Positions 2,683 to 62,720 of a DNA stretch of 64,000 nucleotides are shown here, piece after piece. Origin of the DNA: Acrocarpospora phusangensis (GTDB lineage Bacteria > Actinomycetota > Actinomycetes > Streptosporangiales > Streptosporangiaceae); contig NZ_BOOA01000025.1 in NCBI RefSeq assembly GCF_016862995.1, positions 1-64,000 on the forward strand, in the 5' to 3' direction. Positions within the stretch are counted from its first letter, which is position 1, and the number at the start of each line of letters is the position of its first letter. The position numbers were made by a program, and so were the translations under genes. The notes beneath the pieces are model-generated. The model did no database searches. It was not told the origin of the DNA and was given only the letters and a program-made list of their open reading frames with translations.

Positions 2683-3996
2683 ATGCGGAGTCAGGAACCG
2701 AGCCGGGCCCCGCTGGGGCCCGAGGCCCGCGGGCGGGTCACACGAGGGAACCGCAAGACCGTCCTGGTGGTCGTGCACACCGCCGCGTCCGGCCGGCGCC
2801 TGCTGGAGGCGGTCCAGCTGGTCCAGCCGGACCCGCGGGTCCAGGTGCTGTTCACGCTCGCGGAGGACGCGTACGGCGACGGGGAGGCCGAGTTCATGGC
2901 GGGGCTCGGCGGGGTGCCGCTGCCCTGGCGGCGGGCGGTGGGCGAGCCCTTCGACCTGGCCGTCGCGGACGGTCACGGACCGGTGCACGAGCTGCGCGCG
3001 CCGCTGCTCGTGCTGGGTCACGGAGCTCACGGAGCTCACGGAGCTCACGGAGCTCACGGAGCTCACGGAGCTCACGGAGCTCACGGAGCTCACGGGACCT
3101 ACGGCACCCACGGCGACGGATCCGGCAGGTTCGCCCCGCGCGCGCCGGGCCGCCGCGTGGCCTGCGGGCACGGCGCGTACGGGCCGGACGCGCAGCGCCT
3201 GCTCCGGGACGGCGCCGTCGTCCCGGACGCCATCGTGCTGCCGCACCGGGCCGACCTGGGCCGGCTGGCGCGCGAGTGCCCGCAGGCCCTGCCGGTGGCC
3301 GAGGTGGCCGGCGACCCGGTCTACGACCGCCTGGCTATCAGCGTCCCCGACCGCGAGCTCTATCGCCGGGCCCTGGACGTACGGCCCCGCCAGAAGCTGG
3401 TCGCGGTCGGCTGCGCCCCCGGGCCCGAGTCCCTGTCGGCCGCCGCCGACCTGATGAGCCGCCTGGTACGCCAGCTGCCCGCCAGCGAGTACCGGGTGGT
3501 CGCCCTGCTGCACCCGGGAGTCTGGTCCGCGTACGGGTCGTGGCGGGTGCGGGCCTGGCTGGCCGACAGCCAGCGCCGGGGGCTCCAGGTCGTGCAGCCC
3601 AAGGACGACTGGCTCGGCGTGCTCGTCGCGGCCGACTTCGTGGTCGGCGACCACGGCCCCGCCGCCCTGTACGGCGCCGCCCTCGGCCTCCCGGTCCTCC
3701 TGGCCGGATCGCCGCCGGAGCACGCGGTCCCGGGCACCCCGCTCGGCGAGCTGGCGGAGATCGCGTCCCGGATCAACCGGCACCAGCCGCTGGCGGTCCA
3801 GCTCGCCAGGGCCGCCGCCGCGCGCGGGCCCGAACAGCGGCGGCGGGTGACGAACATGCTCACCTCTGCTCCGGGACGGTTCCACCGCAACCTCCGGCGG
3901 CTGATGTACCGGCTGATGAACCTGCGGCAGCCCGCGTGCATTCCGGTGGCCACCCCCGTTCCGATGCCGTTCCTGACGCCGTACTACGGCGGCTGA
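2683..3996 (+). CDS. GT-B-like glycosyl/glycerophosphotransferase-like protein with HGA repeat
   Basis: 437 residues, substrate unknown. The second half reads like a GT-B or CDP-glycerol glycerophosphotransferase fold: VLPHRADLGRLA, VAEVAGDPVYDRL, VVALLHPGVWSAYGSW, then VAADFVVGDHGPAALYGAALGLPVLLAG, which matches the donor-binding region of such enzymes. There is no signal peptide or clear membrane helix. In the middle (about residues 112-140) eight copies of His-Gly-Ala come from a perfect 9-bp tandem repeat, probably a surface loop. The ATG has only a weak ribosome site (a GAGGGGG run about 14 nt upstream), so the start is uncertain. It diverges from the encapsulin operon; no functional link is evident. 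Confidence 0.7.
   Translation: MRSQEPSRAPLGPEARGRVTRGNRKTVLVVVHTAASGRRLLEAVQLVQPDPRVQVLFTLAEDAYGDGEAEFMAGLGGVPLPWRRAVGEPFDLAVADGHGPVHELRAPLLVLGHGAHGAHGAHGAHGAHGAHGAHGAHGTYGTHGDGSGRFAPRAPGRRVACGHGAYGPDAQRLLRDGAVVPDAIVLPHRADLGRLARECPQALPVAEVAGDPVYDRLAISVPDRELYRRALDVRPRQKLVAVGCAPGPESLSAAADLMSRLVRQLPASEYRVVALLHPGVWSAYGSWRVRAWLADSQRRGLQVVQPKDDWLGVLVAADFVVGDHGPAALYGAALGLPVLLAGSPPEHAVPGTPLGELAEIASRINRHQPLAVQLARAAAARGPEQRRRVTNMLTSAPGRFHRNLRRLMYRLMNLRQPACIPVATPVPMPFLTPYYGG
3021..3092 (+). repeat. Eight perfect 9-bp tandem repeats (CGGAGCTCA)
   Basis: Eight uninterrupted copies of CGGAGCTCA, in frame, encoding His-Gly-Ala units. The copies are identical at synonymous positions, which points to recent slippage expansion. 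Each unit holds the palindrome GAGCTC. The repeat decays into GGGACCTACGGCACCC on its right side. Confidence 0.95.
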
Positions 3997-52729: not shown

Positions 52730-53545
52730 ATGAGCGAATGGGACGCCACCAGCGTCGAAGGCAAAGACACCATCCTGCGGGTGGTACGCGAGGAGGCCGA
52801 GCGCTTCTTCGCCCTCGCGGAACCCGAGGACGCCTGGGAGGCCCCCACCGCCTGCGCGGGCTGGCACGTCCGAGACGTCGTCGCGCACATCGTCGACACC
52901 ACCGAGGGCTACTTCGCCGCCTTCGACGTGGCCCGCGCCGGCTCCCAGGCCGCCGACCCGTACGGCCTGCCCGCCATGGGCGCCCGCGTCAACGAACAGG
53001 CCATCTCCTTCCGCGACACCACCCAGAAGGAACTCCTGGACCGGGCCCGCGCCGACTTCGAGAAGATGCAGGGCATCCTGACCGACCTCACCCCCGAGGA
53101 ATGGACCGGCTTCCTGGTCACCCACCCCTACATGGGCCCCGTCCCCGCGTACTTCTACGCCGCCGGCCAGCTCATGGACTTCGGCGTGCACTCCTGGGAC
53201 ATCCGCGAGGGCACCGGCCGCAACCACGCCATGTCCGGCGACGCCGCCGACCTCCTGGTCCCGTTCATGCTGGTCCTCTGGCAGTACACCATCAAGGCGG
53301 GCGCCGACCTCACCCCCTTCTCCGTGGGCCTCCGCATCGGCGGCCGCAACGGCGGCGACTTCCGCGTCGACGTCACCCCCGAAGGCATGGCGTACGCCCC
53401 CGGCGACGTCGGCGACCTCCCCGCCGTCATCGAGTTCGACGCCGCCAGCATGGTCCTCACCACCTTCGGCCGCGGCAACTTCGGCACCGTCCGCGGCAAC
53501 CTCGACACCGCCAACCGCTTCCTCAACCTCTTCTTCCGCATCTAG
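52730..53545 (+). CDS. Maleylpyruvate isomerase/DinB-like family protein
   Basis: 271 residues from ATG 52730 with AAGGAGA upstream. N-terminal maleylpyruvate isomerase domain, mycothiol-dependent type (WHVRDVVAHIVDTTEGYFAAF, with His for zinc; LMDFGVHSWDIREGTG with the second His), and C-terminal part VSVGLRIGG-like FSVGLRIGGRNGGDFRVDV. Family members act on maleylpyruvate or detoxify compounds with mycothiol. Its substrate is unknown. It is the last chromosomal-looking gene before the mobile region. Confidence 0.85.
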   Translation: MSEWDATSVEGKDTILRVVREEAERFFALAEPEDAWEAPTACAGWHVRDVVAHIVDTTEGYFAAFDVARAGSQAADPYGLPAMGARVNEQAISFRDTTQKELLDRARADFEKMQGILTDLTPEEWTGFLVTHPYMGPVPAYFYAAGQLMDFGVHSWDIREGTGRNHAMSGDAADLLVPFMLVLWQYTIKAGADLTPFSVGLRIGGRNGGDFRVDVTPEGMAYAPGDVGDLPAVIEFDAASMVLTTFGRGNFGTVRGNLDTANRFLNLFFRI

Positions 53546-53736
53546 CCCCAAACTGGGACATTTCGGCCTGCCGCTCTACGGAGTGTCAGGCCGTTGACCT
53601 GTAAAGGCGTCAGTGGCCGCCGGTTGCCGTCGGTGGCCAATGGTGGCTATCTGACGGCCCACAGACGGCCCAGCGCGACCGGCGGCCCCCAATCGGTAGC
53701 CTTCGCGGCCCGTTGTTGCCGTCCACTCCGCTATGG
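53546..53736. other. Gene-free boundary of a putative integrative element
   Basis: No gene. The stretch 53590-53700 holds GGCCGTTGACCTG, GGCGTCAGTGGCC and other short half-repeats with an atypical word pattern compared with the neighbours. An attachment site could lie here because everything to the right resembles an integrative element, but no tRNA and no long direct repeat was found. Confidence 0.3.
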
Positions 53737-54873
53737 TCAGTCGATGGTGGCCGACCAGCGTCCACGCTGCAGGCGGATCGACCCATCGGGCGAGACCCGG
53801 ACCCGGGCGCCGTACAGCGGCAGCGCGCCGTGCTGTAGCCAGTAGTCCCGAACCCGGTCCAGTTCGTCCCAGAGGCGGCGTGGACCGCCCTGGTGGACGG
53901 TCGGCAGGTCTTCCCCGGTCGACTCGGCGCGGGCCCATGACCCGTCCTCGTGGACCATGACGGCCGTACGGGCGTCGCCGTTCTCCTCGTAGGAGTGCTC
54001 GATGCCCGGCGCTGCGATCTCCAGCATCGAGCGGATTTCCCAGGTGTCGCCGTTGACCATGTCCAGCACCGGGAACCGGGACGGCTCCACGCTGTCGCCC
54101 TCGGCGGTCTGTGCGGTGGACACCAGATCGTCGAGTCCGGGCGGGTAGTCGGCGCCCTCGCGGCTGGACATGAACATCGCCCAGTCCCGGGCGACTTGCC
54201 CGGCTGCCCCACCGTCTTCGGTCTTGTCGGCCACGACGATCAGCGACGTGCCGGCGATGGTGGTGACGAACCGCCCGCCGGGGCGCAGCGCATCCAGCCA
54301 GGAGGCAGGGATGGGCTTCACGGACACGGTGGCCACGATCCGGTCGTGCTCCCCTGGGAGAGGCCCTGTCGCGTCCACGGCCATGAGGGCGGGAAGCAGG
54401 CCGACTGCGGCGAGCCGTTCGCCGGCCGCCTTGAACAGGTAGGGGTCGACGTCCACGCTCGTGACCCGCTCGGCGCCGAGCAGGCGGGCCAGCAGCCCGG
54501 CGCCGTACCCGGAACCGGTGCCGACATCGAGCACGTCCAGTCCTGGATGGATGTTGGCGTGCCCGAACATGGTCAGGACCAGGGACGGCAAGGTCGAGGA
54601 CGAAGTCGGGTAGCCACGGGCGCGGTCCTCGGGCGTGGCGTGGTCGGCGTGCAGGGTGCCGATCTGGGTCACCAATGTTCGATCGGAGTAGGCGGCGCGC
54701 ACCCACGAGCCCGGGTCAGCCGGGCCGTCCTGGACGGTGCGGCCGCCCGGCCCGGGTGCCCACCAGCGGGGCACGAGAAGGTGACGGGGCGTCGAGGCGA
54801 CGGGTTCGCGCCATCGGGAGCGGGGGTGGGTGACCTGCTCTGCGAGGCGTTGCGCGTGCGATGCCCAGTCCAT
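53737..54873 (-). CDS. Protein-L-isoaspartate-methyltransferase-type methyltransferase
   Basis: 378 residues from ATG 54873. SAM fold: VLDVGTGSGYGAGLLARLLG, VTSVDVDPYLFKAAGERLA, preceded by LVTQIGTLHADH and TSSSTLPSLVLTMFGH, the region that in PIMT enzymes contacts the substrate. The 150-residue C-terminal extension resembles those of FxLD-system methyltransferases in actinomycete mobile elements. It follows the radical SAM gene by 5 nt. Substrate unknown; it may modify a peptide together with that enzyme. Confidence 0.8.
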   Translation of the reverse strand: MDWASHAQRLAEQVTHPRSRWREPVASTPRHLLVPRWWAPGPGGRTVQDGPADPGSWVRAAYSDRTLVTQIGTLHADHATPEDRARGYPTSSSTLPSLVLTMFGHANIHPGLDVLDVGTGSGYGAGLLARLLGAERVTSVDVDPYLFKAAGERLAAVGLLPALMAVDATGPLPGEHDRIVATVSVKPIPASWLDALRPGGRFVTTIAGTSLIVVADKTEDGGAAGQVARDWAMFMSSREGADYPPGLDDLVSTAQTAEGDSVEPSRFPVLDMVNGDTWEIRSMLEIAAPGIEHSYEENGDARTAVMVHEDGSWARAESTGEDLPTVHQGGPRRLWDELDRVRDYWLQHGALPLYGARVRVSPDGSIRLQRGRWSATID

Positions 54874-54878
54874 GGGCC

Positions 54879-55739
54879 CTATTCTCCGTCGACCTGCTGG
54901 GCAGGGGCGCAGTCGTTGCCATCGCTGGCGGGGGCACATTCCGGGCCGCATACCCTGGCTTGGGCGGGGACGTGGGCCAGCCATTCACGCCACGTCAGTC
55001 CGGCCACGATGCGGCTCAGCGGTTCGGCCCGGACGTCGCCGGCGACCATCCAGTGGGCCATCACGCATGGGGTGATCTGGCCCGTCGGGGAAACCGCCAC
55101 GCGGTGGTCGCCGCACCGTCCGCACAGCTGCGACGGGTCCGCCCGACCTCCCGGACGTCCGCGCCCGATGCCGCGCAGCTGGTCGACGCGGATCCCGGTC
55201 ACACCGAGCGCGTCGAGCTCGGCCCGCGCCTGCTCGACCCGCTGGCCCGGTAGAACGTGCACGACAGATGCCCGTACGGGAATGCCGAGCCCGACCGCCC
55301 TGATGATGTTGGCGCGGGTCCGCGCGTAGCCGTCGGCCCGGCCGGTGATCCGCGCATGCTCGCTGGCGTCGTCTGAGTAGTAGCTGGTGGCCAGGGATAC
55401 ACCCGGCCGCGCAAGCACGTCCCACCAGGGCTCGCGGATCCGGTACAGGTTCGTGAACACCTCGACGGGCACGCCGACCTCGACGGTGTGGGCGAGGATC
55501 CGTGCGAACTCGGGGTGCAGGGTGGGTTCGCCGCCGATGAACTGGACGCGGGCACCCAGCGCCGCGGCGTCGCTGATCAGGTGACACCAATCGTCGCCGG
55601 TCATGGAGCCGTGGGAGACGGTCGGCCCCGAGTCGGCGTAGCAGTGAACGCAGGCGAGCTGGCAGCGGCCGGTCAGCTCTAGGGCGACGTGCCAGCCGGT
55701 GAGTGCGGAGTGGGTGGCGCTCTCGTGCAGAACGGTCAT
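54879..55739 (-). CDS. Radical SAM protein with C-terminal Cys clusters
   Basis: 286 residues from ATG 55739, with AGGAAGG 8 nt upstream. The radical SAM Cys are C26-x3-C30-x2-C33 in ELTGRCQLACVHCYA; then FIGGEPTLHP and the SAM-binding region around VEVFTNLYRI. The C-terminus holds further Cys (LCGRCGDHRVAV, TPCVMAH, CGPECAPASDGNDC), as in SPASM/Twitch domains that bind auxiliary iron-sulfur clusters. Enzymes of this type often modify peptides. The partner methyltransferase follows. No convincing precursor peptide gene was found beside it. Confidence 0.87.
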   Translation of the reverse strand: MTVLHESATHSALTGWHVALELTGRCQLACVHCYADSGPTVSHGSMTGDDWCHLISDAAALGARVQFIGGEPTLHPEFARILAHTVEVGVPVEVFTNLYRIREPWWDVLARPGVSLATSYYSDDASEHARITGRADGYARTRANIIRAVGLGIPVRASVVHVLPGQRVEQARAELDALGVTGIRVDQLRGIGRGRPGGRADPSQLCGRCGDHRVAVSPTGQITPCVMAHWMVAGDVRAEPLSRIVAGLTWREWLAHVPAQARVCGPECAPASDGNDCAPAQQVDGE

Positions 55740-55962
55740 CGGCGTGACCTTCCTCGACGGGGGGCGGCCTGTGTCGGTCCCGGTTGGAGGGTACGCCGGA
55801 TCGATGATCGGCGGTGCGCCGCATGGGACGATTCCGTGTCCTGCGGGCATTCGTCACCAGCACCCCCGTTCACTTCGAGTGCTGTGTAAATGACCAGACA
55901 TTTCAGAGGCAAGAGCGATAGAAGAGATCCTGGGGCTTGGAAAAGAAGAGGGGGGTTGTTTG

Positions 55963-57375: not shown

Positions 57376-57424
57376 GCCCTCGACGGAGAGACCTGGGTCG
57401 CGCGTACGGCTGCGCGTGGTGCGC

Positions 57425-57664: not shown

Positions 57665-57736
57665 GGGGGGCCTCCTGGGGTCGCGCGTACGGCTGCGCGT
57701 GGGCTGCGCGCTCTCGAGATTTTCGATCTTGAATAG

Positions 57737-57866
57737 GGGTGCAACGGGGGTGCAACGCCCCCCTGCAACGAAGGGTGCAACGACGGGGTGCAACAGGGGT
57801 GCCACACCGCCTCTGACCTGTGACCCCCTCGCCCGTTGCACCCCCTCCCCTCCGCGAGGGTGCAAC
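57737..57866. repeat. GGGTGCAAC repeat cluster: candidate clt locus / TraB recognition sites
   Basis: Five perfect direct copies of GGGTGCAAC (57737-57745, 57748-57756, 57773-57781, 57786-57794, 57858-57866), one perfect inverted copy (57835-57843) and two degenerate ones (57764-57769, 57797-57805) in 130 bp. They begin 14 bp after the traB-like gene, on its 3' side. In Streptomyces conjugative elements, the clt locus is a set of 8-bp repeats next to traB that TraB's C-terminal winged helix binds. Position, spacing and size fit; binding is inferred. Confidence 0.7.
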
Positions 57867-57871
57867 GGGCG
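57830..57871. terminator. Hairpin formed by inverted repeat copies after traB
   Basis: A perfect 14-bp stem (57830-57843 and 57858-57871) around a 14-nt loop, built from one inverted and one direct GGGTGCAAC copy. It starts 9 bp after the traB stop codon in the transcription direction, so it is a probable terminator for the twelve-gene operon. Confidence 0.65.
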
Positions 57872-57879
57872 CGGGCGGG

Positions 57880-60141
57880 CTACTCCGGGCGGGTGAGCAT
57901 CAGGTGGCGCTGCGCGTCCTCGTCGTACCCGAGCACCTCGTCCCCGCGCAGCTTCCGCAGGCGGCCCTGTGCCCACTGGCGGGTCATGTCCGTGCTCGAC
58001 CACAGCGGGGACAGGTCGCCGGTCTGGAAATCCCGCCGGCCGCCATCCCACCAGTCCTGCAACAGGGTGATGAGCGCGGCGTGCCGGGCCTCCGGCGTCA
58101 TCGACTCGCCGCGATCGAACGTCCACGGCGGCTCGCCCTCGTCGATGTCGGGGATCTCGTCGTCCATCCCGGCCTGCACGTCCGGGTCCGGGTCGTCGCC
58201 GGGCGGCAGGTACTCGCCCACCACGTCCTCGTCGTCGTCCACACCGTCCTCCTCCTGGTCGTCGTCTTCGTGGCCGCGCAGATCGTCCAGCACCTCGTCG
58301 AGCTCGTCGGCGCCGCGCAGCACCTTGGGCGCTGCGTTCTCGCGCGCCGGGCCGAGAACCCCGGCGTCCTGAAGAGCGGCCACGAGCTCTCGGGCCTGCT
58401 CCCACGGCACACGCAGCTTGCGCTGAAGCATCTGGGGAGAGCCGAACTGGGTGGTGACGACGAGCTCGGCGGCTTGGACGAGCAGCTCCCGGTCAATGGG
58501 AGGTTGGTCCACCACCGCCGTGGCGGTGGCCTGCGCAGACGCGGGCGACTGGACGAGCTTTGCCAGCCGGGCCGTGCCTTCGTCCACCTGCTTGGCGGCG
58601 GCCGGGAACAGCGCGGCGTGCTCGCGCATCGCCGCGGTGGCCACCTCGTCGTCGAACTCCTCGCCGACCATGCCCCACGCGAACGTCCGCAGCGGCATCG
58701 CGATGCGGTCCCGGGGGATCGTGGGCGCGCCCAGGTAGGCCATGCCCGGCTGCCCGTTCTCCCACAGCTCCGGCCGGGCGCCGGCCTCCTCCATGGCCTC
58801 CGACAGGCCGAAGGAGGCATCACCGGAGTTGGCGACGCCGAAGCACATGTTGCCGAGCTGGCCGCGCGCGATCGTGGGCATCTGGGTGTAGTCGGAGCGC
58901 TGGAGGGACAGCACGACGGTGCCGCCGGCGGATCGCAGGGCCTTGACCAGGGACAGGAACTGTTCCATCTCGGAGTCGGTGAGCGCGTCGAGGATGTCGG
59001 GGCACTCCTCCAGCCAGATGATCCAGTACGTCAGGCCGCATCCCTGCCGCCACTTGGTGAGCCCGCGCGCGGACAGCTGGTTGGTGCGGTTCTTCACCTC
59101 CGCCTGAAGGTCGCGCAGCATGGCGCGGGCGCCCGCGGTGGTGTCCTCGAAGCGGTGCAGGGACTCCTCCAGCGGCCCGAGCGTCTGCCGGCCTTTGGTG
59201 ACGTCGGCGGCGAACACCGCGACGTCTACGCGGGTGATGGCGTCTCCGAGGATGTTCCAGCAGCCGCCGATGGACTTGCCCGCGCCGGACATGCCCATCA
59301 GCTGGAGGTGGTGGCCCACGATGACGTAGAGGACGTCGTCCAGGTCCTGCCACAGCCCGATCCGCAGAGCGTCCGCGATCGACCCGCCCGGCAGAGAAGG
59401 ACCCGGCCAGGGCAGCGGGCGCTTCATGACGCGCGGATCGGAGAAGACGGCCTTGGCCTTGCTGGCGTCGTCGGGGTCAATCGAGGTGGTCACCGACCCG
59501 GGCGGCAGGCCCATGCCCGACTCGATGTAGGGCGCCCGCCGCTGGAAGTCGTCGGCCACCTGCTTGCCGGCCTCCAGCTGAATGTCCGCCTCGATCTTGT
59601 GCTCGGTGCGGGCGGTAGTGCGGGCCTCAATCGCGGGCATGCCCGCCTTAGCCGCCGCGGTGCCGAACAGCGCGGTCAGCGGGTCGTTGGCGATGGCCGG
59701 GACGTCGACCTGCTTGACCCTGATGACCGTCCGGATGTTGAAGCTGAGCGCGAGGGTGACGCCGCCGATGACGTAGGCGCGGCCGGTGGCGGTCGAGAGC
59801 GGCCCGCTGATGGTGGCCGCGCACACCCACATCCCGGCCAGGGCGGTGGTCAGCGTGGTGTGCGCCCGGCCGGTGGTGCTGCGGGCGTGGGACTGGTGCC
59901 AGGTCAGCCACGTCAGGACCAGCGCGCACAGGGTGATCCCTGCCGTGGTCCAGGCGACCACCTGCGGGTCGTCGCTGCGCAGGGTGAAATGGAAGGCCGC
60001 GCCGAGCCCGAGCAGCAGCAGGCCGATCGCCCACGGGGAGGCGTACAGCAGGACCTTGCTCACCTCGCGCGCGGCCACCTGGCTCATGCCGCCCGGCTCG
60101 GACGGCGGCGTCTCGACGCGGATGCTGGTGGTGCGGGCCAT
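57880..60141 (-). CDS. traB: TraB/FtsK-SpoIIIE-like DNA translocase
   Basis: 753 residues from ATG 60141, which overlaps the previous stop (TGATG). Four N-terminal membrane helices (LLYASPWAIGLLLLGLGAAF, then VVAWTTAGITLCALVLTWL and two more), an FtsK/SpoIIIE motor with Walker A GMSGAGKS at residues 283-290 and Walker B YWIIWLEECPD, and a C-terminal winged helix near 560-610 (LVVTTQFGSPQMLQRKLRV, LVAALQDAGVLG), as in TraB and FtsK-gamma. An acidic stretch follows. TraB moves double-stranded DNA between mycelia. The clustered repeats directly after the gene are the likely DNA target. Confidence 0.85.
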   Translation of the reverse strand: MARTTSIRVETPPSEPGGMSQVAAREVSKVLLYASPWAIGLLLLGLGAAFHFTLRSDDPQVVAWTTAGITLCALVLTWLTWHQSHARSTTGRAHTTLTTALAGMWVCAATISGPLSTATGRAYVIGGVTLALSFNIRTVIRVKQVDVPAIANDPLTALFGTAAAKAGMPAIEARTTARTEHKIEADIQLEAGKQVADDFQRRAPYIESGMGLPPGSVTTSIDPDDASKAKAVFSDPRVMKRPLPWPGPSLPGGSIADALRIGLWQDLDDVLYVIVGHHLQLMGMSGAGKSIGGCWNILGDAITRVDVAVFAADVTKGRQTLGPLEESLHRFEDTTAGARAMLRDLQAEVKNRTNQLSARGLTKWRQGCGLTYWIIWLEECPDILDALTDSEMEQFLSLVKALRSAGGTVVLSLQRSDYTQMPTIARGQLGNMCFGVANSGDASFGLSEAMEEAGARPELWENGQPGMAYLGAPTIPRDRIAMPLRTFAWGMVGEEFDDEVATAAMREHAALFPAAAKQVDEGTARLAKLVQSPASAQATATAVVDQPPIDRELLVQAAELVVTTQFGSPQMLQRKLRVPWEQARELVAALQDAGVLGPARENAAPKVLRGADELDEVLDDLRGHEDDDQEEDGVDDDEDVVGEYLPPGDDPDPDVQAGMDDEIPDIDEGEPPWTFDRGESMTPEARHAALITLLQDWWDGGRRDFQTGDLSPLWSSTDMTRQWAQGRLRKLRGDEVLGYDEDAQRHLMLTRPE

Positions 60142-60536
60142 CACACGTCCTTCCAGTTGAAGGTGGACGGCCTGTTCTCCGGCTTGGCCTGCGGGAGCAC
60201 GTCCACGAACTCCTTGCGGAACTGGGCGTGGAACTTCACCAGCTCGACCGCCGCGGCGCGCTGAAGGGTGGCCGCGCGCTGGAGCCGCTTGACCGTCCGC
60301 TTGGCCTTCCGCCGGACGTCGGGCGCGCCGAGCAGGGCGAGCACCGGGTGGCCCTTGAAGCTGCGGATCAGGACGGCGTACAGCTCGTCGGCGCCCATCC
60401 CGAACTCCTCGCTCAGGTCCCGGCAGAGCGCGCGGCCCTCGCGGGAGTAGGCGGTGATGGCGGCCGGGCCCGCCCACGGGATGTTGGCGAGTTCGGGGAT
60501 GCGGTTGCGGCCGGGCCGAGGTTCGGGGGTGGTCAA
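60141..60536 (-). CDS. Hypothetical protein of the transfer operon
   Basis: 131 residues from TTG 60536, overlapping the previous stop (TTGA). N-terminal basic/Pro-rich stretch, then helices with VDGMGADELYAVLI-like residues, KGHPVLALLG, and a basic helix KAKRTVKRLQRAATLQRAAAVELVK. No membrane segment. Position directly before traB suggests a transfer accessory protein. Family not recognised. Confidence 0.72.
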   Translation of the reverse strand: MTTPEPRPGRNRIPELANIPWAGPAAITAYSREGRALCRDLSEEFGMGADELYAVLIRSFKGHPVLALLGAPDVRRKAKRTVKRLQRAATLQRAAAVELVKFHAQFRKEFVDVLPQAKPENRPSTFNWKDV

Positions 60537-60718
60537 CGGTGCTCCTTAATCAAGGCGGCGAACTGGCGGGCCATGGTCGAGACGCGGCGGGTGCCGAACA
60601 CGGCGGACACGTACGCGTCCAGCGCGCCCAGCAGGAGGATCGCGGCGGTGCCGAGGTCCACCAGCGCGAGCATCAACCGGTGCAGCGCCAGCAGCGCGAT
60701 GTAGCGGGCCTGGTTCAT
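60533..60718 (-). CDS. Small membrane protein
   Basis: 61 residues from ATG 60718, overlapping its neighbours on both sides by 4 nt. One hydrophobic helix (LALVDLGTAAILLLGALDAYVSAVF) flanked by basic residues. No family recognised; comparable small spread (Spd)-like membrane proteins accompany traB in actinomycete elements. Confidence 0.68.
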   Translation of the reverse strand: MNQARYIALLALHRLMLALVDLGTAAILLLGALDAYVSAVFGTRRVSTMARQFAALIKEHR

Positions 60719-60966
60719 GGCTTGGCCCTCCGGGTGAGGGAGATCCGGATGCTCGCGCGGGCCAGCAGGCGGGATGCTGCGCTGCGTGCGGCGAGCACTC
60801 CGGCGGCGCCGGCGAACAGGCCTACGCCGAACGCGACGAGCGGGGCGATGCGGTCGAGGCGGGAGGCGGTGAGCCCGAGCGCCCACAGGGTGAGCGCGAT
60901 GACGGCCAGGCCGAACCAGTCGCCCGCGCTCGCCTTGCACCCGGCGGCCTTCCTGCGGGTGGCCAT
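60715..60966 (-). CDS. Small two-helix membrane protein
   Basis: 83 residues from ATG 60966 (GTG 60969 also possible). Two hydrophobic segments: WFGLAVIALTLWALGLTAS and APLVAFGVGLFAGAAGVLAA, followed by a basic tail. Overlaps DUF2637 by 1-4 nt. Perhaps a spread (Spd)-type protein; family unknown. Confidence 0.68.
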   Translation of the reverse strand: MATRRKAAGCKASAGDWFGLAVIALTLWALGLTASRLDRIAPLVAFGVGLFAGAAGVLAARSAASRLLARASIRISLTRRAKP

Positions 60967-61874
60967 CACGCACCGGTCCCGTTCACTGCGGCGGGGTGCC
61001 GCTCACGCAGCTTGGTCAGGCCAGGCCCGGCGAGGACTTCGGCCGGGGTGAGCCCGGCCACCAGCTCCTCGTCGGTCGGCTCGGCCGGGCCGGCGTTGGC
61101 CAGCGGCGCGAGGATCGCGGCCGCGCGTTGGCGGCTGATGCCGTACCGGCTGACCAGCTGGCCGGGCTCGGGCCTGTCCCCGGTCACGGAGTAGTCGGCC
61201 TGGACCGCGCCCACGACCACCTCGCCGATCAGCTGGCGGGCCTGGGGTCGGGTCAGTTTGAACCGGTCACTCAGCCCGCGTTCGGAGATTGGGTGGCCGT
61301 CGGCGACGGAGGCTTCGTAAGCGGTGCGAGCCGCCTCGACAGCCGTGCGCGGAACGGTAGGCGTCAGGACCGGCATGTCGAGTTCGGGTTCGGCAGGCTG
61401 GTCATCCTCTCGTACGGCAGCCGCCGGTTCGGCGACCGCCGCACCCCGGCGGAGCATGCCCATCAGGAGTTCGTACGCCACCACCAGGACCAGCGGCGCG
61501 ACGGCGCTGATCAGGCGGGATTCCGGTCCGCCCGACCAGCCGTGAGCCACGTTGGCGGCGAGGGTTGCGAGAGCGCCGGCGGCGAGGGTGATCCGGGCGA
61601 GCCATGGCGCGGACTGGCCGCGCTTGGACGAGTCCAGCATCACCAGGCTGGCCATGGCGATCATGCCGTCGATGAGGACGGGCAGCGTCCATGCCAGTTC
61701 GACCGGGTCGCCTGCCTTGCGGGCCAACCCGAACTGGTGCCGGAAGCTGACGTAGGCGGCGACGGCGGCGATGACGCTCACGACGAGGATCGCGGCGCGG
61801 CGCGTGGCCGGGTTCGTGACCGGCGGTGACGGGTGTGTGGTCTCCGGTCCGTGCGGTGGCTGGTTGGTGTTCAC
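60966..61874 (-). CDS. DUF2637 (SpdB-like) membrane protein
   Basis: 302 residues. N-terminal half: four membrane helices with the DUF2637 pattern (AAILVVSVIAAVAAYVSFRHQ, LAWTLPVLIDGMIAMASLVML, ITLAAGALATLAANVAHGW, APLVLVVAYELLMGML). C-terminal half has two predicted helix-turn-helix-like segments (ISERGLSDRFKLTRPQARQL, VSRYGISRQRAAAIL). DUF2637 genes are typical of integrative and conjugative elements in Streptomyces and relatives. ATG overlaps the previous stop by 4 nt. Confidence 0.85.
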   Translation of the reverse strand: MNTNQPPHGPETTHPSPPVTNPATRRAAILVVSVIAAVAAYVSFRHQFGLARKAGDPVELAWTLPVLIDGMIAMASLVMLDSSKRGQSAPWLARITLAAGALATLAANVAHGWSGGPESRLISAVAPLVLVVAYELLMGMLRRGAAVAEPAAAVREDDQPAEPELDMPVLTPTVPRTAVEAARTAYEASVADGHPISERGLSDRFKLTRPQARQLIGEVVVGAVQADYSVTGDRPEPGQLVSRYGISRQRAAAILAPLANAGPAEPTDEELVAGLTPAEVLAGPGLTKLRERHPAAVNGTGA

Positions 61875-62212
61875 CAGCGGCCTCCAATCGCCAGGCCGCC
61901 GTGCATGAGGGCCTCGCCGAACTTCAGGGTGTCGTCGGGTGACAGGGTCAGCAGGAGACTGCCGAGGGCCTCGGCGAGGTCGTCGGCGAGGTCGAAGGTC
62001 TGCCGCACGGCCGGCCCCAGGTAGCCGTCGGACAGCACCAGGTGCACGTGCTCACGTTCGGCGTCGCCGCGCAGGCTCACCTCGACGTGAAGCGCGCCGG
62101 TGCGGCTTTCGAGCGCGGCCAGCTTCCGCCAGTGCACGGTGGGCTCGGCCCGGCGTTCGTGGCCGTCCGGTTCGATACACCACGCGAAGGTCTGGCATTG
62201 CGGCGTCGTCAT
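61871..62212 (-). CDS. DUF6907-like small protein, copy C
   Basis: 113 residues from ATG 62212. Start CQTFAWCIEPDGHE and VHWRKLAALESRTGALHVEVSLRGD, then DLAEALGSLLLTLSP. It resembles two other proteins of this module (63494-63892 and 62412-62720) in the N-terminal C...WC...H and W/H motifs, which suggests a metal-binding fold of the DUF6907 type. Function unknown. Confidence 0.75.
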   Translation of the reverse strand: MTTPQCQTFAWCIEPDGHERRAEPTVHWRKLAALESRTGALHVEVSLRGDAEREHVHLVLSDGYLGPAVRQTFDLADDLAEALGSLLLTLSPDDTLKFGEALMHGGLAIGGRW

Positions 62213-62412
62213 CGCGCGGCCCCCGCTTCCTCGCGCGCCGCGCGCTCCATCTCGGCACCGATCAGGGCCAGGCGGGTCGCGGTCACCTCGGCCAGGTTGG
62301 CGGCCAGGTAGGCGAGCACGGCCATCTCCTGCGCCTCGCTGAGGTTGTTGAGGAACTCGCGGAAGTTCTGGCCGGGGTCGTCGCCCACGATCAGGGACAC
62401 GATCTCGTCCAT
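62209..62412 (-). CDS. Small helical protein, copy B
   Basis: 67 residues from ATG 62412. Rich in Ala, Leu and Glu: FREFLNNLSEAQEMAVLAYLAANLAEVTATRLALI, a likely helical bundle. It resembles the protein at 63270-63497 in length and in the run TLASMRLEIEA/TATRLALIGAE. The stop overlaps the next ATG (ATGA). Confidence 0.65.
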   Translation of the reverse strand: MDEIVSLIVGDDPGQNFREFLNNLSEAQEMAVLAYLAANLAEVTATRLALIGAEMERAAREEAGAAR

Positions 62413-62720
62413 CAGACCGCCCCTTCTCCGCAGGTCGGCGCACCGTAACCTCGGTTACGGTGGGACTGGTCAGCCGCGCGGGCGCGGGCGGTCATGGCCA
62501 GCAGCGCGTACGCGACGGCGTCGGCCTGCTCCAGGCTCATCTCGTCGGCGCTGCCGTACAGGGCCACCGTGGGCGACCCGCCGGCCACCACGGACAGGTA
62601 CACGGCGCCCGGGATGCCCCCGGACATCTGACGCTGGAAGAGCGGCACGGGGATGGGCGCGGCGTCGCACATGTCGAGCTCGGGCGAGTGGTCGGCGCAC
62701 CACGGAGTCAGGCACGTCAT
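62412..62720 (-). CDS. DUF6907-like small protein, copy B
   Basis: 102 residues from ATG 62720 (the open frame upstream overlaps the preceding gene). MTCLTPWCADHSPELDMC matches the N-terminal Cys/His motif of copies A and C; then LSVVAGGSPTVALYGS and DEMSLEQADAVAYALLAM. Its stop shares a base with the following ATG. Confidence 0.75.
   Translation of the reverse strand: MTCLTPWCADHSPELDMCDAAPIPVPLFQRQMSGGIPGAVYLSVVAGGSPTVALYGSADEMSLEQADAVAYALLAMTARARAADQSHRNRGYGAPTCGEGAV

Follow-up and report, generated by a model that had tools for sequence, protein, structure and literature searches.

This locus raises the question of whether a cluster of short repeats beside a conjugation gene serves as the clt (cis-acting locus of transfer) that is read by the product of that gene. 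The window, a 64,000-nt stretch of Acrocarpospora phusangensis DNA (contig NZ_BOOA01000025.1, positions 1 to 64,000), contains the traB gene of an actinomycete integrative and conjugative element (AICE), and directly 3' of this gene the word GGGTGCAAC occurs in six exact copies within 130 bp. Taken together, the comparisons described below make it very probable that the array is a clt with a new word of a known word series, located in a well-defined AICE, and it is from sequence that we infer its function in transfer. Five copies are direct (57737-57745, 57748-57756, 57773-57781, 57786-57794 and 57858-57866, forward strand) and one is inverted (57835-57843, reverse strand). The inverted copy lies in the left arm (57826-57843) and the fifth direct copy in the right arm (57858-57875) of a hairpin. 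Two imperfect forms complete the array: a half-site, CCCCTGCAAC, at 57760-57769, which includes the near copy CCCTGCAAC (57761-57769), and the variant word GGGTGCCAC at 57797-57805, which is kept at the same place in the loci L042 and L043 (both on the forward strand). The exact search thereby confirmed the five direct, one inverted and two degenerate copies that the initial annotation had reported near the 3' end of traB. The array thus consists of a short word in both orientations within non-coding DNA, 14-146 bp past the traB stop codon (57880-57882, reverse strand), between this codon and a small lipoprotein-like gene.

The clustering of GGGTGCAAC is far beyond chance. Beyond the six copies no further exact match is present in the 64-kb window, and the whole 9.11-Mb genome holds 28, including the six; the other 22 are scattered, with no two copies outside the array less than 3 kb apart. 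At this background of 2.4e-6 per bp, about 3e-4 copies are expected per 135 bp. Among 2000 dinucleotide shuffles of the segment, any 9-mer reached five copies at most, and in 1997 of them three or fewer. The genome-wide count, which had been proposed as a check of the clt interpretation, therefore found the word clustered and not evenly scattered.

The array is part of a larger conserved module of about 190 bp of non-coding DNA (57681-57875, forward strand; module profile E=5e-34), which was aligned with 31 other modules and exceeds the interval first reported (57737-57871). Across loci the order of its parts is a block termed CR1 (GCGCGTACGGCTGCGCGTGGG), an AT-rich block with the motif GATC, the word array, a second block termed CR2 (TGACCTGTAAC), a C-rich block, an inverted word and a direct word. 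In the window, CR1 (GCGCGTACGGCTGCGCGTGGGCTGCGCGC, 57681-57711) is near-invariant across the 32 modules, the AT-rich block (TTTTCGATCTTG, 57720-57731) contains a GATC that is invariant in the alignment, and CR2 (CTCTGACCTGTGACCCCCT) is found at 57811-57829, all on the forward strand. A partial second copy of CR1 (57398-57419, forward strand) lies beyond the small lipoprotein-like gene, so that the two CR1 copies bracket this gene, a layout that would suit its insertion accompanied by a partial duplication. The CR2 core TGACCTGT, at 57814, also occurs a second time at 53595, just inside the left attachment site of the element. ARAGORN called a tRNA-Glu at 57692-57770, which overlaps CR1 and the repeats and was taken as an artefact; Rfam matched no tRNA in this interval and returned only a chance hit far below the gathering score.

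To place the module among relatives, TraB homologues were searched in 343 Streptosporangiaceae genomes, 56 of which carry one, and about 60 loci were inspected together with extended flanking DNA; a single-protein scan of genome contigs returned one relative only. The module profile found the module in about 55 of 61 TraB loci, at most about 0.7 kb after traB and mostly less than 100 bp from its stop codon. Across these loci the scaffold is kept and the word switches in concert (GGGTG-CAAC, -CCAC, -TCAC, -TCGC, GGGGGCCAC and others), with TGCAAC, TGCCAC, GGCCAC, TGTCGC, TGGCAC, TGTCAC, CGTCAC and TGTCAG as the word cores by element. In most elements one word is common to all copies, and the position of the half-site is likewise kept in most modules, spelled in each element's own word. 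Even the relic traB genes of L133, L137 and L138 adjoin words that fit the remains of their helix. As positive controls, a blind count of repeated 7-mers after traB returned GGTGTCA for pWTY27 and CCGCACA for pJV1, both of which are published words.

These two plasmids provide the closest described systems. The clt of pWTY27, a theta-type Streptomyces plasmid, is needed for transfer, begins at the 3' end of tra and is footprinted by the Tra protein of the plasmid at the word TGACACC, equivalent to GGTGTCA (PMC3583192). The window resembles pWTY27 (record NC_013667.2) in the order of the operon, in an array that starts at the 3' end of traB, in inverted repeats, in a similar C-terminal winged helix and in the frame of the word (GGTG-TCA in the plasmid, GGGTG-CAAC in the window). 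It differs in the word itself, in being an AICE and not a plasmid, and in an additional FtsK-gamma domain in its TraB; the Streptosporangiaceae scaffold (CR1, GATC block and CR2) was searched for in pWTY27 and was not found. For pJV1, as far as this clt is described in PMC3583192, nine direct repeats CCGCACA[C/G][C/G] are cited and the repeats are essential for transfer. What pJV1 and the window have in common is that short repeats follow at the traB 3' end; they differ in both word and scaffold. By position, form and word frame, the array of the window therefore agrees with a proven clt. The proposal that GGGTGCAAC is a new recognition word holds, with the qualification that it is not isolated, as its series includes the footprinted word GGTGTCA of pWTY27 (PMC3583192).

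If the array is a clt, its word is expected to follow the part of TraB that reads it. The traB gene (57880-60141, reverse strand) encodes a 753-aa FtsK-like translocase, which scores 381 bits with the NCBIfam model plasmid_TraB (below the 800-bit cut-off) and whose profile matches FtsK structures. Its layout comprises predicted N-terminal helices, the motor, an FtsK-gamma domain (residues 552-608, 58318-58488, reverse strand; Pfam 1.6e-9, above cut-off) and a C-terminal winged helix (residues 683-753, 57883-58095, reverse strand), the latter two both predicted with high confidence, in the case of the winged helix over residues 683-748. The winged helix that had initially been assigned to this protein is present in the AlphaFold model, but the protein contains two DNA-binding domains, the FtsK-gamma domain being the second. 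A structure search with the winged helix gave generic winged-helix matches only; the predicted recognition helix comprises residues 721-733 (RQWAQGRLRKLRG, 57943-57981, reverse strand), of which R721 is invariant. Among 47 TraB homologues scanned, 16 carry an FtsK-gamma domain in addition to the C-terminal winged helix.

The word changes jointly with the winged helix. In partial Mantel tests (N=53), word and winged helix are correlated given the motor (r=0.37, p<0.001, 0 of 5000 permutations as high), and word and motor are not correlated given the winged helix (r=0.009, p=0.44). As the DNA of the winged helix and that of the clt are neighbours, the test was repeated with linkage controlled by means of the scaffold DNA that separates the words (N=46), and the association of word and winged helix given motor and scaffold was maintained (r=0.36, p=0.0003), with r=0.002 between word and scaffold. 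Concerted word changes number at least 11 on the motor tree and nine on the winged-helix tree; TGCAAC requires five changes on the motor tree, and the winged-helix tree groups the window with L042 and L043 and unites GGCCAC in one group. The loci L062 and L066 form a natural pair whose motors are sisters but whose words differ (TGGCAC and TGCAAC). Among associations chosen post hoc, all 24 elements whose word has C at position 6 carry Q at residue 725, 18 of 22 TGTCAC elements carry Y there, and R729 and R732 are present in six of six TGCAAC elements. The FtsK-gamma domain was rejected as the main reader because TraBs that have it and TraBs that lack it share words (with/without: TGCAAC 3/3, TGCCAC 1/14, GGCCAC 1/2). 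It is therefore likely, judging from comparative sequence evidence, that the C-terminal winged helix and not FtsK-gamma reads the word, which would make the word specific to the cognate TraB. The comparison with related traB-downstream DNA and the clustering of the word thus support the clt interpretation of the initial annotation, which needs words to follow the TraB winged helix. In a simple model, the clt and the neighbouring 3' end of traB may be exchanged, or evolve, as one specificity cassette.

Several observations weigh against this interpretation. The array was not seen beside a few TraB homologues (L094 and L100), and words of the TGTCAC class are looser. A weak signal between word and motor persists once the scaffold is included (p=0.049, N=46), and some co-inheritance of word and winged helix is expected for DNA neighbours, to which the scaffold control is a partial answer. 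The associations between residues and words were picked after looking at the data, the recognition-helix columns as a group did not predict the word significantly better than other winged-helix columns (p=0.11), and the phylogenetically independent pairs, none of which disagrees, are too few (two to four). Statistical proof of a residue-level code was not reached.

The host element is a 28.8-kb AICE with mapped attachment (att) sites. Its att cores are 29-bp direct repeats, attL at 53521-53549 beside the integrase gene and attR outside the window at contig positions 82319-82347, and the att repeat is located at the 3' end of a maleylpyruvate-isomerase-like gene. GACGGCCCACAGACGGCC repeats adjoin the cores and are separate from the clt array. 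In addition to the integrase and the FtsK-like TraB, the element encodes an excisionase-like protein and a replication protein of the Prim-Pol type (PF09250, 3e-24). The AICE thereby resembles pSAM2-type AICEs, which combine Int, Xis, Rep and TraB in one element, and the difference from AICEs such as pSAM2 is that a predicted clt is identified here for a family of AICEs. In the mechanism proposed, excision by Int/Xis and replication would come first, TraB monomers would then bind the GGGTGCAAC words via their C-terminal winged helix and assemble at the clt as a hexameric pump for double-stranded DNA, and this pump would transfer the element, as a circle, to the recipient. The word would form the element-specific part of the address and the surrounding blocks a shared scaffold, and the TraB C-terminal domain would be expected to select GGGTGCAAC over GGGTGCCAC or GGGTGTCAC arrays. 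The module, together with the catalogue of words and the winged helices paired with them, should allow clt prediction in AICEs and word/helix swaps, and the natural word switches are a ready data set on DNA recognition by winged helices.

With its iteron-like direct repeats, its hairpin and its AT-rich GATC block, the module also resembles plasmid origins, and the iterons of pWTY27 are similar in kind (PMC3583192), so that it could be a replication origin, either of the iteron type or a double-strand origin, that Rep recognizes, with the GATC block as the opening or nick site. This is very unlikely, as in the window's element no initiator gene adjoins the module: the Prim-Pol gene lies about 20 kb away. 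Only 3 of 56 loci have a Prim-Pol homologue less than 1 kb from the module, in contrast to traB, which is adjacent in nearly all. Moreover, the word tracks the TraB winged helix, and iteron and clt are separate in pWTY27. Another explanation starts from the position of the hairpin, which follows traB directly and is very stable (z = -5.3), and regards it mainly as the terminator of the tra operon, with the repeats as incidental. The hairpin formed by the inverted pair is real, as initially described, but the suggested terminator role is unsupported, since no T-run follows it and the whole module, hairpin included, occurs in either orientation relative to traB, opposite to that of the window in many elements. 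Termination without a T-run may still occur as a second role. With words that are conserved outside the hairpin too, termination as the main function is very unlikely. Some loci have GntR-like genes next to the module, as would suit an operator bound by a regulator of the GntR or Kor type, yet a scan with the sigma-70 consensus found no promoter-like site, the module is situated downstream of traB and in most loci no GntR gene touches it, leaving this explanation highly improbable. Finally, although tyrosine integrases bind short repeated arm sites, there is next to no chance that the module is attP with such sites, as it neither contains nor flanks an att core, the mapped cores lie 4 kb and 24 kb away with repeats of their own, which contradicts this reading, and an integrase homologue never occurs less than 1 kb from the module.

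The clt interpretation also extends to elements that lack traB. The scaffold was searched for without traB using DNA patterns, which miss diverged modules; most matches adjoin traB or a traB relic, and two well-bounded elements do not. One, L175 (L175:1158-9793, G131:C30), is an 8.5-kb integrative element in tRNA-Ser with 105-bp att repeats and genes for an integrase, an excisionase-like protein and a DUF3631 protein. In this element a TGTCAC module precedes a GGTGTCAG array, and the word and scaffold of the latter match the clt of L099, a TraB element co-resident in the same genome. The other, L141 (with L156; G294:C23, 715.97-725.70 kb), is a 9.7-kb integrative element in tRNA-Pro with a 43-bp att repeat, an integrase gene and an AAA_25 gene, and its arrays near attR are spelled TGTCAC, GTGCTAG, GTGCCAC and GGGGCCAC. 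The absence of TraB in both elements is based on TraB profile and protein searches; by search, G294 has no TraB of this family, the sole match being a chromosomal FtsK gamma domain. The Pfam model PF01580 is poorly suited to detecting these TraBs, since it missed the TraB of G131:C11. In a third, more ambiguous locus, L142 (L142:8474-9403, G318:C11), two clt-like modules are surrounded by closely packed arrays whose words are unrelated (GGTGCCAG, GGTAGCGG, AGTTAG, CTAGACC and GGTGCTAG), with DUF2637 and GntR genes and no TraB of this family. The words GGTAGCGG and GGTGCTAG of the TraB-less loci could not be assigned to any fetched TraB.

The presence of tandem arrays with differing words and scaffolds suggests selection for more than one helper, and there is an about even chance that small traB-less integrative elements with tandem clts in several TraB words ride several kinds of helper; alternatively, they could be decayed AICEs. 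The integrative and mobilizable elements (IMEs) described to date rely on relaxases together with type IV secretion (PMC5704250). L141 and L175 resemble them in having an integrase and att sites and would move in trans; they differ in carrying TraB-type clts, and no relaxase was noted in them. A limited literature search found no papers on TraB-dependent IMEs. If true, TraB-hijacking elements with composite clts would be the reading that matters most, and the elements without TraB suggest that actinomycetes harbour a layer of mobilizable elements which relaxase-based searches would overlook.

Further features of the element and the window can be summarized briefly. Upstream of traB, a TraA-like gene (60141-60536, reverse strand) scores 38 bits with NCBIfam plasmid_TraA (below the 80-bit cut-off), and other tra-operon genes, with a DUF2637 gene at 60966-61874 among them, follow at 60533-62443 (reverse strand) in the same order as in pWTY27. 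Next to attL, at 53737-55850, an ATP-grasp peptide maturation-type methyltransferase (below cut-off) and a radical SAM/SPASM gene likely represent peptide-modification cargo. One gene of the AICE, located outside the window at contig positions 69795-72992 (L009:9795-12992), encodes a phage tail tape-measure protein of 1065 aa (PHROG E=1e-83). At 3018-3095, the window contains a perfect 9-bp tandem repeat of TCACGGAGC in 8.7 copies.
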